Assembly: GCA_009694415.1 (NCBI GenBank) | Contig: SHUZ01000008.1 | Span: 1-36,874, forward strand | From: Acidimicrobiia bacterium | GTDB taxonomy: Bacteria > Actinomycetota > Acidimicrobiia > IMCC26256 > JAENVU01 | DNA: 36,874 bases | Reading direction: 5' to 3' | Shown: one piece after another, positions 6,070 through 14,842 of the stretch | Layout: each line of letters opens with the position of its first letter | Numbering within the stretch: position 1 is the first letter of the stretch | Notes under the pieces: model-generated | What the model was told of the DNA's origin: nothing | Database searches by the model: none | The model's input: the letters and a program-made list of their open reading frames with translations, nothing else | Position numbers and translations under genes: made by a program

Positions 6070-8295
6070 GTGACTCCTCTCGGTCGGTTGGGCGGTGCGG
6101 CATTTAGGCGGCGCTGGTGGGTGATCTCGGCGTGGCTGGTCATCCTGGTGACACTCGGAGTCGCGAGTTCTTCTGTTGGTTCGACATTTCGCGACGAGTT
6201 CACAATTCCAGGTACCGACGCGCAACACGCGATCGACCTGCTGGAAGCGAGATTTCCGCAACAGAATCTTCTGACCACCCAAGTTGTACTTCATTCCAGT
6301 TCCGGGCCGATAGACAAGGCCCTTATCTCTACTGTGGCGACCTCGGTTGGAAAGATTCACGACGTTCATCTCGTCGGTCCGCCGCAGGTCTCAGCAAACG
6401 GTAAGACGGTCTTAATGCAAGTGGCCTATTCGGCTCAGTGGAGTGATCTGCCTACCAATGGAATAGCGCAACTCAATTCGGCCACCCGTGCGGCTCGCGA
6501 AGCCGGGGTACGAGTTGAATACGGAGGACCTGTAGCCGACGCCCTATTGGCGAAAAAACAAAGTGGCAGCAACGCTGACGCGATAGGACTGCTTGTTGCA
6601 CTTGTGATCTTGATCTTTGTTTTCGGCACCGTGGTAGCCGCGCTGGTACCTGTCGGCATGGCGATTATGGGAATAGTCATCTCAGTATCGCTGCTTACCG
6701 TCGTGGCGACGATGTTTACCGTCGGTACTGTCGCTCCGGTTATCGGAGTGATGATCGGCTTAGGCGTAGGGATCGACTACTCCCTACTTATTGTCACCCG
6801 ATTTCGTCAGAATCGTGACGCAGGAATGGATATTCAGGAGGCGATCGAAGTTGCGATGGCCACCGCAGGAAGTGCCGCACTGTTTGCCGGCGCTTGCGTC
6901 ATGATCTCGTTGGGGGGTCTGTGGTTCGCGAGGATTCCTTATGTTTCGATGCTCGGATTCTCTGCCGCGCTATTCGTTTTTGTGATGGTCCTTGTGTCGC
7001 TGACACTCTTGCCAGCGCTCCTCGGCGTGTTGGGTCACCACCTGGATCGCTTGCGCGTGTTTCCGAAACGACATTCTCACACCGATGCAGGTGGCGGATT
7101 TTGGTATCGATGGGGCCATGCCGTAGCGAAATATCGGTGGCCTTGTCTTGTGGCATCCCTCGCGGTCTTACTGCTGCTGGCTTGGCCAGCTCTTGGATTA
7201 CAGCTTGGCTTTGCAACCGACGGCGATGATCCAACTAGCTACACGCAACGTCGCGCGTACGACTATGTGAGCGAAGCGTTCGGTCCCGGCGTGAATAGTC
7301 CGCTACTCATCACAATGAAGTTCGCACCCGCTGCCAAGCGTGACGTCGCTGCAGATCTTTCCGCAGTACAGCGCATCCTCGGTGCGGTCAAAGGGACTAA
7401 AGGAGTGGTATTGGCTGAGGGGCCTCTACTCAACAAGACGGCTTCAGCGGGAGTATTGATCGTCATCCCGTCAACCGAAGGCAACGCACCAGCAACGCAA
7501 GATCTTGTCCGCACACTTCAGAATCGCGTCATACCGACTGCTACAGCGGGAACCCCGCTAGATGGGAATGTGTTTGTCGGCGGAACCACCGCCGAACTGA
7601 TTGCCGTAACCGATCGCATTTCAGAGCGTCTGCTTTGGTGTATCGGATTTGTTGTGCTCGCGGCGTTCTTCTTATTGATGTTGGTGTTTCGGTCCATCTT
7701 GGTTCCGCTCAAGGCCGCGGTGATGAATTTTTTATCTATCGGGGCCGCTTTTGGCATTTTGGTCGTCGTGTTCCAGTGGGGCTGGGGACGTGAATTGATC
7801 GGGGTGCATGAGATGGTTCCAGTTGTTTCATTCGTGCCGCTAATAATGTTCGCGATCCTGTTCGGTTTGTCGATGGACTATGAAGTGTTCCTGTTGACAC
7901 GTGTGCGCGAGGAATACCTCGCGACAGGTGACAACCGCGAAGCCGTCGCAACTGGCTTGGCGAAGACGGCGAGGGTGATCACATCTGCGGCTGTGATCAT
8001 GATCTCGGTGTTCCTTGTATTCGTTACCAACTCGTCGCCAACGGTGAAGATGCTTGGAATCGGCCTGGCGGCTGCAGTCGCAGTTGACGCTACGATCGTG
8101 CGCTTGGTGCTCGTTCCATCCACGATGGAACTGCTTGGCAAAGCGAACTGGTGGATGCCCAAGTGGCTGGATCGCATTCTGCCGCGCCTCGACGTCGATG
8201 GTCCATCGGAGTTATCTGATCGTTCGCTATCTGCTCTAGCCACAGATGGAACTTTCGACGAAGCCGCGGGAGCTGGCAGTAACGCCGAGGGCTAG
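6070..8295 (+). CDS. MMPL/RND-superfamily membrane transporter
   Basis: GTG start; two repeats of extracytoplasmic domain plus TM bundle; GLGVGIDYSLLIVTRFRQNRDAG and GLSMDYEVFLLTRVREEY motifs. Confidence 0.93.
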   Translation: MTPLGRLGGAAFRRRWWVISAWLVILVTLGVASSSVGSTFRDEFTIPGTDAQHAIDLLEARFPQQNLLTTQVVLHSSSGPIDKALISTVATSVGKIHDVHLVGPPQVSANGKTVLMQVAYSAQWSDLPTNGIAQLNSATRAAREAGVRVEYGGPVADALLAKKQSGSNADAIGLLVALVILIFVFGTVVAALVPVGMAIMGIVISVSLLTVVATMFTVGTVAPVIGVMIGLGVGIDYSLLIVTRFRQNRDAGMDIQEAIEVAMATAGSAALFAGACVMISLGGLWFARIPYVSMLGFSAALFVFVMVLVSLTLLPALLGVLGHHLDRLRVFPKRHSHTDAGGGFWYRWGHAVAKYRWPCLVASLAVLLLLAWPALGLQLGFATDGDDPTSYTQRRAYDYVSEAFGPGVNSPLLITMKFAPAAKRDVAADLSAVQRILGAVKGTKGVVLAEGPLLNKTASAGVLIVIPSTEGNAPATQDLVRTLQNRVIPTATAGTPLDGNVFVGGTTAELIAVTDRISERLLWCIGFVVLAAFFLLMLVFRSILVPLKAAVMNFLSIGAAFGILVVVFQWGWGRELIGVHEMVPVVSFVPLIMFAILFGLSMDYEVFLLTRVREEYLATGDNREAVATGLAKTARVITSAAVIMISVFLVFVTNSSPTVKMLGIGLAAAVAVDATIVRLVLVPSTMELLGKANWWMPKWLDRILPRLDVDGPSELSDRSLSALATDGTFDEAAGAGSNAEG

Positions 8296-9560
8296 AAGGT
8301 CGTGAACTGTGCCTCGGTCGGCTCTGCGCAGCAGAACCAGGGTTCAGATAGGTGCGGTACTGAAATGTCCGGAGCGTTGACCGGTTCTAAACCGAGTTCG
8401 ACCCGCACCGCATCGAATGTTTCAGAGACTGGATTGTCGGTCATCTTCTCGACGATGGTCGCCACCCTTGCCTGAAGTGCATCTAATGGAGACTCCCAGG
8501 GGTACGAGAGCCGCTCTGGATCAAACGGCATGAGCCCATCGATGTCTCCGATCAGTAGCGAACCTTGCGGAACGAGAAGTCTGATCGAGTAGTGAACGGG
8601 GTCTACGTTACTTACGAGGTCATTGCCGGCGACGAAGTTTGTAATTTCCTGCACATCTCGTAGTTCAGACCATGGCGTGAACGGCAACCAAGTCGGACGT
8701 ACAGCGATTCCGTGACCCCTCAACACAGCAACTGCTCGCTGCCCATCCTTTGCCGTGTGGCCTTTGTCGAGTCTTGCGAGAATTGTGTCGTTTACGGACT
8801 CGAATGCACTCACAACGAATAGGCATCCGAGTCCGGCCATCTCGCTCCACACTTCTTCGTGTCGCAAGATGTGTTCGACCTTCACAGTGCAGTCGAAGGT
8901 CAAGTCCGGCACTGCTTCATGGACTGCACGCGCGACGCGTAACGCGTGGTGGATCCCGTTGAAGAAATCAGGGTCGCCGAAGGTGACGTGCCGCGCGCCA
9001 GCATTCTTCTGGGCGACTACGTCATCAACTATCGCGTCTACCGGCACAATTCGCGTACGTCCGTCGTACACGACAGGTACAGGGCAGTGCTTACATCGGT
9101 GTGCGCAACCAGTGGATGCCTCGACATACGCTGTCGGCAATTCGCTGTCGGCCAACACCAGACGCGCGTAACTCGCGAGTGGGGGGAGAAGGTTCCGCGC
9201 CGGTAGGGCTCTAACGTGCTCGGCGAGTGGATCTTCTTCAATCCATTGCAACAGGGCGGTTTCCGGATCGCGGTCCACCAAAGCGGTCGCGACTTCAGCG
9301 CACATCGCAGCGTAGAGACCATAGGCCGCGACGGGCACCTCGAACTTCGGCGCTATCGACCGCGCGAGTCTCGCTGCAGTGTGCATTGGAACAGAAATAG
9401 CGACGCGGTCGGCCCAATTAGCGAGCGCTCCATCCCACTCCTCCACGGAGAGGTCTAGGCAGCGGACTTCGTGTCCCCGCGCCTGCAACATTCCTGCTGG
9501 CCCTGCGACGCCGAGCGGCTGGTGGCCGAGTTCGTAGGTGGACACCAGCAGGATCCTCAT
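8292..9560 (-). CDS. Radical SAM protein with C-terminal CCAEP tail and N-terminal B12-binding-like region
   Basis: Start placed at ATG 9558-9560 (MRILLVSTYELGHQPLG). Radical SAM motif STGCAHRCKHCPVP; C-terminus SEPWFCCAEPTEAQFTTF. ATGA overlap with the upstream ATP-grasp gene. Confidence 0.87.
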   Translation of the reverse strand: MRILLVSTYELGHQPLGVAGPAGMLQARGHEVRCLDLSVEEWDGALANWADRVAISVPMHTAARLARSIAPKFEVPVAAYGLYAAMCAEVATALVDRDPETALLQWIEEDPLAEHVRALPARNLLPPLASYARLVLADSELPTAYVEASTGCAHRCKHCPVPVVYDGRTRIVPVDAIVDDVVAQKNAGARHVTFGDPDFFNGIHHALRVARAVHEAVPDLTFDCTVKVEHILRHEEVWSEMAGLGCLFVVSAFESVNDTILARLDKGHTAKDGQRAVAVLRGHGIAVRPTWLPFTPWSELRDVQEITNFVAGNDLVSNVDPVHYSIRLLVPQGSLLIGDIDGLMPFDPERLSYPWESPLDALQARVATIVEKMTDNPVSETFDAVRVELGLEPVNAPDISVPHLSEPWFCCAEPTEAQFTTF

Positions 9561-10720
9561 GCAATGACGATATCGAGGTGAGAGACCGCCTCCCGTAGGG
9601 CAGCTTCGACTTGTTCGGGGAAGTCTGCGCGCGCAAAGAGAAAACCTAGGTAGCGATCGCCTTCGGGCAAGGGGACAACGCGATGACCAATCGGAATTGT
9701 GATCTCTAGTCCTACGACTCCCGGCACCCCGAGTGCTCTTTCGCGGCCGTTTACGGCGACCAACGTGCCTTCCTGTGCGATCGGGAGCATTGTCACACCG
9801 GATGCGCTGCTCTCGCGCGCGAGGTCGGTCATCGGTAAGTGGAGAGCGTGTCGTAACACGACTTCCTCGAGGCTGATCCCTGCGCCGAAACGAAGGGCGC
9901 GCGCGCACAGGCCGCCCACCGAACGGGAAGCCACCTCGATTACCCAGGCTTGGCCATCTTTGACGCGCACCTCGGCATGCACCGGTCCCTCAGTCAATCC
10001 CAATGCAACACAAGCAAGCGAAGCGGCCCGTTCTGCAGCCCCTAGGTCGCGAGGAACAAGCCGCGACGGTGTGACGTACATCGTCTCTTCGAAATAGGGA
10101 CCGACAAGTGGATCGGGCTTGTCGAAAGTCGCAAGCACCTCGAGTCGTCCATTTGTGAGCAAACCTTCGAGAGCAATCTCTACCCCGGGGACGTATTGCT
10201 CAACCAATAGTGGCCCGTCCCAAAATGTTGCGATACGGATCCGGGCGGCCGACTCCTGCTCTGCCGTATCGGCGCGGATGACCCCTCGGCTTCCGGACAG
10301 TCCTGTTGGTTTCACAACACATGGGTATCCGACCTCCGCTCCCGATGATCCGAATCGAGGTTGGGTTACTTCGGATTTTGCAAGGCGCCTTCGCATCTCG
10401 GCTTTGTCGCGAGTCGCTGCGACCGAGTCGGGCGGACTGTGCGGAAAGCCGAGGCGTTCTCCGGCATGAGCGGCAGCAAGCGTTCCACCGTCATCGACAG
10501 CCACAACCGCATCGATCCCGTGTTCGCGGTCGAAAGCTTCGATTGCATCGGCCGCAACCAACGGATCATCCAGCGGGATTTGGACAAGACCGCGCCCGTT
10601 TCCCACGGGTGAAGGCATCTCGGTGCCAATGACCAAGTCAACCTCGATTGCCTTGGCGGCGGCTATGAAATCCTGGGCTCTATATGTGGCCGAGGGAACG
10701 AGGAGGAGAATCCTTGCCAT
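9557..10720 (-). CDS. ATP-grasp domain protein (carboxylate-amine/thiol ligase-like)
   Basis: Likely start MARILLLVPS (10720; an upstream ATG at 10732 is also in frame). GYPCVVKPTGLSGSRGVIRA, VEQYVPGVEIALEGLL, GPVHAEVRVKDGQAWVIEVASRSVGG are ATP-grasp signatures. Confidence 0.87.
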   Translation of the reverse strand: MARILLLVPSATYRAQDFIAAAKAIEVDLVIGTEMPSPVGNGRGLVQIPLDDPLVAADAIEAFDREHGIDAVVAVDDGGTLAAAHAGERLGFPHSPPDSVAATRDKAEMRRRLAKSEVTQPRFGSSGAEVGYPCVVKPTGLSGSRGVIRADTAEQESAARIRIATFWDGPLLVEQYVPGVEIALEGLLTNGRLEVLATFDKPDPLVGPYFEETMYVTPSRLVPRDLGAAERAASLACVALGLTEGPVHAEVRVKDGQAWVIEVASRSVGGLCARALRFGAGISLEEVVLRHALHLPMTDLARESSASGVTMLPIAQEGTLVAVNGRERALGVPGVVGLEITIPIGHRVVPLPEGDRYLGFLFARADFPEQVEAALREAVSHLDIVIA

Positions 10721-10738
10721 ACGGCCTATCATGGCCCC

Positions 10739-11362
10739 ATGAGCGACGCGATGACACCACTGCTGACCGTGACCGATGAAGCCCGCACCAAGATCATTGA
10801 TGTTCGGGCGGCGGAGCCGGATTCGGAATCACTTGCACTTTGGCTCGAGGTGAGCGGTGTGCAAGGGACGGCGTACACGTACGAGATGTATTTCCGCAGA
10901 CTCGATGAAGCAGGTGAGGACGAGGTAGTGCAGAGCGGCGATGACCTATCCGTTGTAGTTCCGAGTGCGGACGCGGAAAAGGTTCGGGGATCGACGCTGG
11001 ATATTTCAGGCGGCGGCATGGTTCTCCAGAATCCGAATGTTCCCCAAGTTGGTCCTTCCGCCCCAGCAACCGAACTCGACCTGAGTGATCCGATTGTCGC
11101 GCGCGTCGTCGAGATACTTCAGACCGACATCAATCCGGCAATCGCGGCGCATGGCGGATATGCCGAATTGGTTGCGATTGAAGATTCGCGGGCATACATG
11201 CGTATGGGTGGCGGTTGCCAGGGATGCGGCATGGCAGCGGCGACGCTTTCTCAAGGCATCGAGGTAGCGATTCTCGATGGTGTTCCTGAGATCACCGAAG
11301 TCATCGATGTCACCGATCACGCTTCAGGAACCAATCCGTATTACGAGAGTGCCAAGAAGTAG
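10739..11362 (+). CDS. nfuA: Nfu-type Fe-S scaffold/carrier (A-type-like N-terminus plus NifU C-terminal domain)
   Basis: C-terminal NifU domain DINPAIAAHGGYAELVAIEDSRAYMRMGGGCQGCGMAAATLSQGIE with the CxxC; N-terminal HesB/IscA-like fold. Confidence 0.9.
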   Translation: MSDAMTPLLTVTDEARTKIIDVRAAEPDSESLALWLEVSGVQGTAYTYEMYFRRLDEAGEDEVVQSGDDLSVVVPSADAEKVRGSTLDISGGGMVLQNPNVPQVGPSAPATELDLSDPIVARVVEILQTDINPAIAAHGGYAELVAIEDSRAYMRMGGGCQGCGMAAATLSQGIEVAILDGVPEITEVIDVTDHASGTNPYYESAKK

Positions 11363-11378
11363 GCAACAAACAAAGTGA

Positions 11379-12095
11379 CTAGGCGAAGCGCGTAGCGTCT
11401 TCGGATGCGTACCTGGAAACTGCGGCGTCGGCGATCGCATTTTTTTCGATCGCTTCTATTGCGGCCCCCAGTTTCTCGGCCGGAATCGCGCATGTCATTT
11501 CTGTGGCCGGCATGCCCGTGCGGACTCGGCTCAATGCACAACCAACACTTGCGGCTATCTCCCGCTGTTCCTTCGCTATCGCGACGATGTGACACTGAGG
11601 TTTACCTTCGATGCGCAACCCTGGGATTGCGTCTGACAAAACCATGAGTTGCTTACCGTTCACGCGGATGAAAACTACGTCGGGATCGAAAGATGTGTCA
11701 GCAAGTGGCCCGTATGTAACAGACCCAGGCTTTTTGGTAATGACTGGGATGTGAGGCACTAGCTCCATCGTCACCCAACCGGAGCCGACCAATGCTGCAA
11801 CGTCGTCGTTTCCAGCCACTTCGTCGAGAGTCTTGAAACCGTGTGTCATGCTCCCGACGCTGCAGTTACCGTGATCTTGTTCAACCGTCGAGAAGGTGTT
11901 TGTTTCTCCGTGGATCCAAAAGACGCATCCCGCTGCCGCTCGTCCGGTCCTGCCATCGGCCAGGGGAGAGGGAATGGGAAGGCCACATGGTTTGACCCCG
12001 TCCGGGGGCGCGTCGTGGAAAGTGATTGCTAGCGGAGCATTTGCGAGATTCAGCGATCCAGAGAGGCGCCGTGCCAGTTCTGACCAGTTGTTCAT
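11379..12095 (-). CDS. DUF169 family protein (Cys-rich, unknown function)
   Basis: KPCGLPIPSP, AAGCVFWIHG, DHGNCSVGSMTHGF, and C-terminal GCALSRVRTGMPATEMTCAIP resemble the DUF169 (COG2043) family; 22 bp downstream of the NifS-like gene. Confidence 0.72.
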   Translation of the reverse strand: MNNWSELARRLSGSLNLANAPLAITFHDAPPDGVKPCGLPIPSPLADGRTGRAAAGCVFWIHGETNTFSTVEQDHGNCSVGSMTHGFKTLDEVAGNDDVAALVGSGWVTMELVPHIPVITKKPGSVTYGPLADTSFDPDVVFIRVNGKQLMVLSDAIPGLRIEGKPQCHIVAIAKEQREIAASVGCALSRVRTGMPATEMTCAIPAEKLGAAIEAIEKNAIADAAVSRYASEDATRFA

Positions 12096-12117: not shown

Positions 12118-13251
12118 CTAATTGGTACCGAACAGGGCACGGAGTTGCGTAACTACGCCCGAGAACTCGGAAATGAAGAGATCTATCTCGGCATCGGTTG
12201 TGTTCCAACCGACACTCACTCGAAGCGAGTGGTCTGCATCGACTCCCATAGCCATGAGCACTGGCGATGGTTCTAGGGATTCGCTTGAGCACGACGAGCC
12301 AGAGTGAATGGCGATGCCGCGTTGATCTAGGCCGAGCAAAATGGGTTCCGCCTCTACACCGTCCACGCCGAAACAGAGAATATTCGGGAGCCGATCTACT
12401 GGATCCCCGAATCTTGTGATGCCCTTGACGTCATTCGAAATCGCCGTGAACGCTCGGGCAGTGTTACGCCGCGCAATCTCTTCCTCTGAACTGAGGGTCA
12501 CCGATACCCCGGCCGCGGCCGCACCGAATCCGACGATCGCAGGGATATTTTCTATCCCACCGCGCCGCGCACGCTCTTGCGCGCCTCCCAAGATCAAAGA
12601 TGGGATACGAAGGCCGCGCCGCACAAGCAATGCGCCAGTGCCCTTCGGGCCACCCCACGTGTGTGCCCCGACGCTGCAGAGATCTGCGCCGAGCGCGGCG
12701 AAGTCGATCGGCACCTGACCAATAGCTGCGCATGCATCGACATGTACAAGGGCGCCGCAAGCGCGCGCAAGAGCGCATACCTCTGCTGCGGGCTGCATGG
12801 TTCCAACTTCGTGATTGGCGAGTTGGATGGTTACGAGAGCCGTCGTCGGCGAGATGTTGGAATGGATCTCAGCTGGATCAAAACGTCCGTGGCGATCGAC
12901 GCCAACCGCAATGGTCTCGAGTTCCTCGCGGTGACACGCTTCGATGACGCTCGAATGTTCTACCGCCGTGGTGACTAGACGGGTTGGGTTCGCGCAGCGG
13001 CGTACCGCCCCAAATATCGCGGCATTGACAGATTCGGATCCACCCGACGTAAAGATCACCTCGCGCGGGCGTGCACCGAGTAACGAAGCGACTTGTTCTC
13101 TCGCAAGTTCTACGGCCGATCGTGTCACCTTTCCCGGTCCATGAAGGCGTCCAGGGTCCGCATGATGCGCATGCAAAAAAGGCAACATCGCCTCTAGCGC
13201 GGACTCACGCAGTGGTGATGCTGAAGCGTGGTCTAGGTAGGCGCTATTCAC
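12118..13251 (-). CDS. NifS/IscS-like class V aminotransferase-fold protein (annotatable as cysteine desulfurase, but PLP Lys replaced)
   Basis: AYLDHASASPL, FTSGGSESVNAAI, TTAVEHSSVIEA, HVDACAAIGQ, GAHTWGGPKGTGALLVRRG, SGSSCSSESLEPSPVLMAMG. The expected HK is HT (T198). Confidence 0.85.
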   Translation of the reverse strand: MNSAYLDHASASPLRESALEAMLPFLHAHHADPGRLHGPGKVTRSAVELAREQVASLLGARPREVIFTSGGSESVNAAIFGAVRRCANPTRLVTTAVEHSSVIEACHREELETIAVGVDRHGRFDPAEIHSNISPTTALVTIQLANHEVGTMQPAAEVCALARACGALVHVDACAAIGQVPIDFAALGADLCSVGAHTWGGPKGTGALLVRRGLRIPSLILGGAQERARRGGIENIPAIVGFGAAAAGVSVTLSSEEEIARRNTARAFTAISNDVKGITRFGDPVDRLPNILCFGVDGVEAEPILLGLDQRGIAIHSGSSCSSESLEPSPVLMAMGVDADHSLRVSVGWNTTDAEIDLFISEFSGVVTQLRALFGTN

Positions 13252-13967
13252 ACGCGGGCGACGCAGTGCGCGTCGCCTTCAGGTCGGCTTTGTTCGAAGT
13301 GTGGTTGTGTCTCACCGTAGAGGCCGGCCATTAGACCGCGGATGAGGCCGCGATCTACCGCGCACACAACATGTGGATACAACTGGGCAGCGTCGCCGAA
13401 CGGGCAGTGTTCGGAAATGATCGTCATCGAATCGCCGTGCTGTTCGGTATGCGCGGCGAAGCCGTGTGCCGTGAGGGCGTCAGCCACCGTCGCGAGCGCG
13501 GCCTTGACTGATCGGTGACCCTCGCTGGGGGCGATGCGGTCCGCGAGTGCGCGTCCGTAGTCGTATCCAACTTCTTCGGCCATGACGGACGCTTGATCTG
13601 GCGGCAATACTTCGAGCGCGCGGGCGAGCAGTGTTGCGAGAAGGTCGTCGCGTCGTGGAGGAAAGTTCAGTGAATGGTCGAGTTGAGTAACCCGGTATCT
13701 CTTCGATGGACGGCCTGCTGAACGAGCGCCTTCCGGCCGACCCATATCGACGACGAGATAGCCGCCCGCAGTCAATTTTTCTAGATGGTGTCTCGCGACG
13801 TTTGGATGGAGTTCGAATCGTTCAGCGATCTCTCCTGCTGTTGCGCCTTCGGAAGCTTCACGTATTGCCAGATAGATCTCGCGTCGTGTTGTGTCGCCGA
13901 AAGCGTTGGTGACGGAGGTGACGGCGGCGCTGAATCCCGAGGCGTCGAGCGGTGCGGGGGAGGACAT
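13248..13967 (-). CDS. SufR-like winged-HTH transcriptional regulator with Cys-containing C-terminus
   Basis: Likely start MSSPAPLDASG (13967). ArsR/DeoR-like HTH ATAGEIAERFELHPNVARHHLEKLTAGGYL; C-terminal CPFGDAAQLYPHVVCAVDRGL...GDAHC. ATGA overlap with the NifS-like gene. Confidence 0.78.
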   Translation of the reverse strand: MSSPAPLDASGFSAAVTSVTNAFGDTTRREIYLAIREASEGATAGEIAERFELHPNVARHHLEKLTAGGYLVVDMGRPEGARSAGRPSKRYRVTQLDHSLNFPPRRDDLLATLLARALEVLPPDQASVMAEEVGYDYGRALADRIAPSEGHRSVKAALATVADALTAHGFAAHTEQHGDSMTIISEHCPFGDAAQLYPHVVCAVDRGLIRGLMAGLYGETQPHFEQSRPEGDAHCVARV

Positions 13968-14002
13968 CCCCGGTATTGTACCTAACTCCGTAGTGGTAAA
14001 TC

Positions 14003-14017
14003 GCTGGCGCCGCCAGC
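14003..14017. promoter_or_regulatory. Perfect palindrome GCTGGCG-C-CGCCAGC in the SufR-like/Mrp divergent intergenic region
   Basis: 7-bp arms around a single central base, 18 bp upstream of the Mrp ATG; candidate operator or hairpin. Confidence 0.45.
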
Positions 14018-14035
14018 ACTCGGCAAGGAGACTCA

Positions 14036-14842
14036 ATGCCAGGCGAGAACCCGTTCACACACGCCAATACGAGGGTTATTGCGATTGCATCGGGCAAGGG
14101 CGGAGTCGGCAAGTCATCGGTAACGACGAACCTTGCAGTGTCGCTTGCGCGAATGGGCAAGCGCGTGGCGGCGCTCGACGCAGATGTATGGGGATTCTCG
14201 ATGCCCAGGATGCTTGGCATTAGCGAGGCGCCGTCGATCAAAGATGACAAGACGATGATTCCGCCTTCGTCCTTCGGGGTGCGTTGCATCTCGATGGGCT
14301 TCTTCGTTCCAGAAGATCAGGCCGTTGTTTGGCGAGGACCAATGCTTCACAAGGCTCTCGAGCAATTCCTCACGGATGTTGATTGGGGAGAGCCTGAATA
14401 TCTAATCGTCGACATGCCCCCTGGCACTGGAGACGTAGCGCTATCGCTAGCCGAGTTCTTGCCGCGCGCAGAAGTCGTGATCGTCACCACGCCGCAGCCC
14501 GCAGCACAGGCAGTCGCGCAACGCGCGGCGGCAATGGCCGACAAGGTCGATCTAGATGTCATCGGCGTAATCGAAAACATGAGCTTCTTCCGAGGCGATG
14601 ACGACAAGGCCTATGAGATCTTTGGAAGTGGTGGAGGACAAGACTTGGCTACTCGGCTCGAGGTGCCGCTGCTCGGACGTATTCCCTTGGTCAAAGAATT
14701 GCGAGAGGGTGGTGACATCGGACGCCCGATAGTGGAAACGGATCCGTCGGGTGAAACATCTCAAGTGTTCGGCGCGATCGCAACAGCCATCGATTCAATG
14801 GCGCCTAAACGCATTTACAAGAAAGAACTTCGCCTCTCCTGA
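14036..14842 (+). CDS. Mrp/ApbC/NBP35-type P-loop ATPase (Fe-S carrier family)
   Basis: IAIASGKGGVGKSSVTTNLAVSLA, DADVWGFSMPRMLG, LIVDMPPGTGDVALSL, IENMSFF...FGSGGG; AAGGAG Shine-Dalgarno before ATG. Confidence 0.92.
   Translation: MPGENPFTHANTRVIAIASGKGGVGKSSVTTNLAVSLARMGKRVAALDADVWGFSMPRMLGISEAPSIKDDKTMIPPSSFGVRCISMGFFVPEDQAVVWRGPMLHKALEQFLTDVDWGEPEYLIVDMPPGTGDVALSLAEFLPRAEVVIVTTPQPAAQAVAQRAAAMADKVDLDVIGVIENMSFFRGDDDKAYEIFGSGGGQDLATRLEVPLLGRIPLVKELREGGDIGRPIVETDPSGETSQVFGAIATAIDSMAPKRIYKKELRLS

Follow-up and report, generated by a model that had tools for sequence, protein, structure and literature searches.

Recurrent absence of the pyridoxal lysine from a NifS/IscS-like protein encoded beside a SufR-like regulator in the Acidimicrobiia

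A 36,874-nt stretch of DNA (the window) from the metagenome-assembled genome of an aquatic actinobacterium of the class Acidimicrobiia (G000; 2.25 Mb, 81% complete) encodes a NifS/IscS-like protein with threonine at the position of the PLP Schiff-base lysine and with its catalytic-loop cysteine in place. The absence of the lysine is recurrent in the protein family, and is neither unique nor accidental. It is judged rather likely that the window protein is a third, SufR-linked cysteine-desulfurase paralogue in which desulfurase chemistry has been lost and which acts via its Cys loop, as a persulfide carrier or a cluster ligand. Natural lysine-less IscS proteins are, as far as could be found, already known from a few archaea only; a literature search with most subscription journals outside its reach found no lysine-less desulfurases in bacteria and, as far as that search shows, the bacterial, recurrent, SufR-linked form is new.

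The protein and its PLP-lysine position

The gene (12118-13251, minus strand) runs from a GTG start at 13251 through 377 codons with no internal stop. Codon 198 is ACG (12658-12660), and in HMMER alignments H197 and T198 of the 377-residue product fall exactly on the His-Lys pair of solved IscS proteins, e.g. SAHKMYGPKG, which bears out the first-pass annotation in reading a Thr for Lys replacement next to a retained His197. The same annotation had the catalytic-loop cysteine retained, and this too was correct: it is C321, within HSGSSCSSESLEPS, and the loop begins as H316-S-G-S-S-C321 (12289-12306, minus strand). Membership of the Aminotran_5 family is clear (Pfam PF00266, 212 bits against a cutoff of 21.5), but none of the four NCBIfam equivalog or subfamily cutoffs is approached; the best match is NifS, at 334.5 against 530.75 bits, followed by DndA (238 vs 480), IscS (234.7 vs 643.2) and SufS (123 vs 475). 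An AlphaFold model (mean pLDDT 94.9) superposes on human NFS1 and on the IscS proteins of M. tuberculosis, E. coli and A. fulgidus at TM 0.92-0.95. D172, H99, H197 and R344 are all retained, and the equivalent of E. coli IscS Gln183 is Ala.

Two further changes had been listed beside the lysine replacement, DATQ to DACA and NNE to NHE. Both are present, but neither goes with the loss of lysine: the His of NHE is found in 103 of 104 family members, and Ala or another residue for Gln is the norm in the order, with the Gln183 equivalent replaced across most of it, lysine-bearing members included. The lysine of the GPKG motif was considered as an alternative Schiff base and rejected, as it is missing in many relatives (HTWGGGLG in G006, for example). 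More generally, 6 of the 17 lysine-less members described below contain no lysine at all, so that no substitute Schiff base is possible in those six, and the earlier suggestion of an enzyme using another lysine is not upheld.

Recurrent lysine loss in a constrained family

Orthologues at 57-98% identity occur in 49 of the 58 genomes of the order; of the 395 genomes of the class, 108 have a match at E<=1e-76. The lysine site could be scored in 104 members, 87 of which have Lys and 17 another residue: Thr in G000, G001, G002, G004, G005 and G006 (all HTW), G047 and G010; Ser in G045, G028 and G017; Pro in G049 and G052; Arg in G315, G292 and G230; and Leu in G393, a long branch for which the alignment at this site is less certain. 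Within the window's family, HT is fixed in genera g1 and g3, which form a sub-clade, and not in g2. On a tree built with the lysine-site columns left out, a minimum of about eight changes is needed at the site, only three of them forced by strongly supported branches, and a single origin, with the lysine-less rows held together, is rejected (p-AU 3e-45). Lys is the state of the outgroup and of most members, and loss is therefore the simplest reading of the changes. The nearest public record, CAMBEL010000002.1 (L039), encodes a 98% identical protein and is titled 'Bifidobacterium breve'; its relatives are Acidimicrobiia and it is likely mislabelled.

The housekeeping paralogues served as a control. 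Canonical SufS, adjoining SufU, and canonical IscS are both present in the window's own genome, and in the sister genome G001 IscS adjoins mnmA. In alignments the lysine is kept in all 18 SufS proteins of the same genomes and in 16 of 16 IscS proteins (copies that are 45% or more identical to the genome's own IscS), as well as in three at 40-45%; recurrent lysine loss is therefore specific to the NifS-like paralogue. Only one more class V protein without the lysine turned up in this comparison, an extra IscS (G003:C385:1850-3150; L266, L177) of G003, a relative in the same family as the window's genome; this IscS has Asp at the lysine site (LSSNDIYGPQ, as in A. fulgidus IscS) and directly adjoins a true IscU. 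It lies on a short 3.9-kb contig, and transfer or contamination is possible.

Pairwise dN/dS values (NG86) for the three closest lysine-less pairs are 0.10, 0.13 and 0.11, within the range for lysine-bearing pairs (0.09-0.19), which shows that the lysine-less members are under purifying selection; more distant lysine-less pairs reach 0.30, with dS saturated in one. H316, C321, E324 and R344 are invariant in lysine-less and lysine-bearing members alike. Across the family C321 and H316 are conserved in 104/104 members, H147 in 103/104 and C293 in 102/104; C321 is likewise invariant among the canonical homologues compared, where the positions of H316, H147 and C293 are S/A, N and N/H. The PLP pocket meanwhile frays among the lysine-less members, where H99, the PLP-stacking residue, is lost in 4 of 17 and H197 in 5 of 17. 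C293, a second family-specific cysteine located in a C-terminal domain strand, could pair with C321 in a disulfide or as a fellow ligand.

These observations bear on two trivial explanations. A sequencing or assembly error at codon 198 would need a change of one base (AAG to ACG) in a metagenome assembly, but the identical HTW state recurs in six separate genomes of the window's family, and other residues are found in unrelated families; the relatives thus rule an error out, with a probability close to nil. Neutral decay, in which SufS and IscS suffice, the activity is dispensable and the genes are on their way to becoming pseudogenes, would accommodate some eight separate losses of the same catalytic residue; the relative G057 does carry an in-frame TAG that splits the gene. 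Against it, the frames of the lysine-less members are full-length, dN/dS is near 0.1 for close pairs and the pairwise values already point to ratios well below 1 on lysine-less branches, the Cys loop is invariant, and gene order is conserved in the lysine-less genomes. Decay is accordingly considered very improbable, and the first-pass description of a maintained divergent protein, as opposed to a decaying pseudogene, holds for the full-length frames and their dN/dS. Orthologues in two frames were seen in two genomes, with the in-frame TAG in G057 (L089) and two pieces in G014 (L080), reflecting either decay or assembly error.

A SufR-like neighbour and a candidate operator

Directly upstream lies a gene for a winged-helix regulator (13248-13967, minus strand; likely ATG start at 13967), the stop codon of which is combined with the NifS-like start codon in a 4-nt overlap, GTGA. 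This HTH regulator is most likely a SufR; the SufR-type cluster-ligand cysteines C211, C225 and C258 in its C-terminal domain (numbered on the longer TTG ORF, 13248-14036) are present in 97 of 97 SufR-like neighbours, and the ligand cysteines of M. tuberculosis SufR (Rv1460) are C203, C216 and C244 (PMC6034842). The protein misses the NCBIfam SufR_cyano cutoff (25.7 vs 178.8 bits), a model built on cyanobacteria. The lysine-less gene is probably part of a SufR-like operon and regulated together with the SufR-like gene. Divergent from this pair is a gene for an Mrp/ApbC (NUBPL-type) Fe-S carrier ATPase (14036-14842, plus strand). The order aconitase, optional cassette, CSD, HTH, Mrp, BagA, BagB, PdtaS is conserved order-wide, and CSD-HTH-Mrp across most of the class. 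The f44 genomes (L142, L145, L155, L160, L159) retain CSD, Mrp and the lysine but have no SufR-like gene at the locus.

The optional cassette comprises four genes in the window, for a B12-binding radical SAM protein with a CCAEP tail (8292-9560, minus strand), an ATP-grasp ligase (9557-10732, minus), an NfuA-like Fe-S carrier (10739-11362, plus) and, downstream of the NifS-like gene, a DUF169 (COG2043) protein (11379-12095, minus). Across the order its four genes mostly occur together or are missing together (8292-12095 here; also L061, L090, L105 and others), between aconitase and CSD. The cassette is found in most lysine-less genomes of the order, but a tie between cassette and lysine loss was ruled out, as G010 and G052 seem to be without it and many lysine-bearing genomes have it.

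Between the likely start of the regulator gene (13967) and mrp (14036) lies a 29-nt operator-like element, GGTATTGTACCTAACTCCGTAGTGGTAAA (13972-14000, plus strand), conserved in the window's family and in part of family f10 with scores of 22-29 of 29 against a shuffled maximum of 18; the weight matrix was built from these same sites and the scores are descriptive. In a genome-wide pattern search, all ten genomes covered had the sufR/mrp site. G052 had an additional mrp site, and the only two sites elsewhere, in G002 and G003, both lay directly upstream of sufB; the reversed control pattern gave three matches in total. In G000 and G001 the same predicted element also precedes sufB, with a weaker copy upstream of sufC-sufS-sufU; it was not found at the iscS-mnmA locus. 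The element is a candidate operator common to the SufR-like promoter and sufB in G000-G003.

Possible roles and comparison with known systems

E. coli IscS variants K206A, H104Q and Q183E are each without desulfurase activity (PMC9978102), and A. fulgidus IscS, with Asp at the lysine site, is likewise inactive and provides a Cys ligand for a [2Fe-2S] cluster carried by IscU (PMC7585200). By analogy with these proteins it is very probable that the window protein lacks desulfurase activity. A dispensable lysine, an indispensable cysteine loop and the putative SufR operon together fit a persulfide carrier or a provider of a cluster ligand, and it is proposed that the lysine-less protein is kept because the IscS scaffold and the loop cysteine still work. 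Most likely it would either take up a persulfide made by SufS or IscS, the true desulfurases, or supply C321 as ligand for an Fe-S cluster in formation. Either activity could serve Fe-S assembly, or loading or sensing by the co-expressed SufR-like repressor. No IscU was found in the window's own genome (81% complete), where the only match is of SufU type, beside sufS, and none lies at the NifS-like locus; the A. fulgidus arrangement of IscS with IscU is thus not simply transferable, and the candidate partners would be SufU, Nfu, Mrp or SufR itself. We infer both the role and the partner. The first-pass annotation had offered a non-PLP persulfide carrier and a regulatory paralogue among its options, and the predicted SufR operon context favours these. 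The lysine-bearing members, the majority, may be active desulfurases, so that the role of the family need not be independent of desulfuration everywhere.

A more specific and tentative proposal, for which the chances are put well short of even, is that the SufR of Acidimicrobiia has a dedicated, co-translated IscS-derived partner, the loop cysteine of which, and not PLP chemistry, would load, repair or sense the SufR Fe-S cluster; repeated loss of the PLP lysine would then follow from the cysteine being all that is needed. In M. tuberculosis, the SufR regulon is reported to change when IscS is lost (PMC10848736), which hints independently that SufR can be fed by a protein of IscS type.

Two other readings retain a function for the lysine-less fold. 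The protein could still be a pyridoxal enzyme, holding PLP or PMP non-covalently and carrying out a slow or different reaction (transamination, a lyase reaction, or desulfuration via an amine of the substrate or a partner). PLP binding without the lysine could occur, as some PLP stays with E. coli IscS K206A, in which reaction intermediates build up (PMC9978102), and D172, H99, H197 and R344 are intact here. That mutant has no desulfurase activity, however, and the losses of H99 and H197 among the lysine-less members, the Asp at the Ser203-equivalent phosphate site in three g14 members, and the chemical diversity of the replacements (T, S, P, R and L, not one catalytic residue) make a pyridoxal enzyme unlikely. 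Slightly more doubtful is a silent subunit in a heterodimer with canonical IscS or SufS, tuning the amount or the target of sulfur. Desulfurases of class V form dimers whose active sites lie at the interface, and the same genomes do encode true IscS and SufS, but the window protein shares only about 39% identity with its own IscS, it has no genetic linkage to iscS or sufS, and its lysine-bearing orthologues presumably homodimerise.

With about eight losses of independent origin, and with close lysine-bearing orthologues in the same operon, this bacterial family amounts to a natural experiment on what the IscS fold does beyond persulfide making. It would also tie a lysine-less protein to the SufR regulon, and 'cysteine desulfurase' annotations in the class Acidimicrobiia may be wrong.

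Compared with E. coli IscS, M. tuberculosis IscS and human NFS1, the window protein has the same fold, Cys loop and carboxylate-binding Arg, and it differs from canonical NifS/IscS in having no PLP lysine, an Ala at the Gln183 equivalent and scores well below every NCBIfam equivalog cutoff. Its closest counterpart in the combination of a non-Lys residue at the Schiff-base site and a retained loop Cys is A. fulgidus IscS (PDB 4EB5, 4EB7 and 4HVK; D199K mutant 4R5F), an IscS-fold protein with a natural Asp (SSNDIYGPKG) at 36-37% identity in the structural alignment. That protein is archaeal and works with IscU, whereas the window protein has Thr, a family-specific HSGSxC loop with C293, a SufR-like neighbour and no linked IscU partner. 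Methanosarcina acetivorans IscS1, another natural lysine-less homologue (PMC7585200), is similarly archaeal and is paired with IscU1. As for the regulator, the resemblance to SufR of Synechocystis and of M. tuberculosis (Rv1460) lies in the three cluster-ligand cysteines and, putatively, in an operator-like promoter element that recurs before sufB, but sufR of M. tuberculosis heads the suf operon itself (PMC6034842), whereas here the SufR-like gene probably shares an operon with the lysine-less gene, away from suf.
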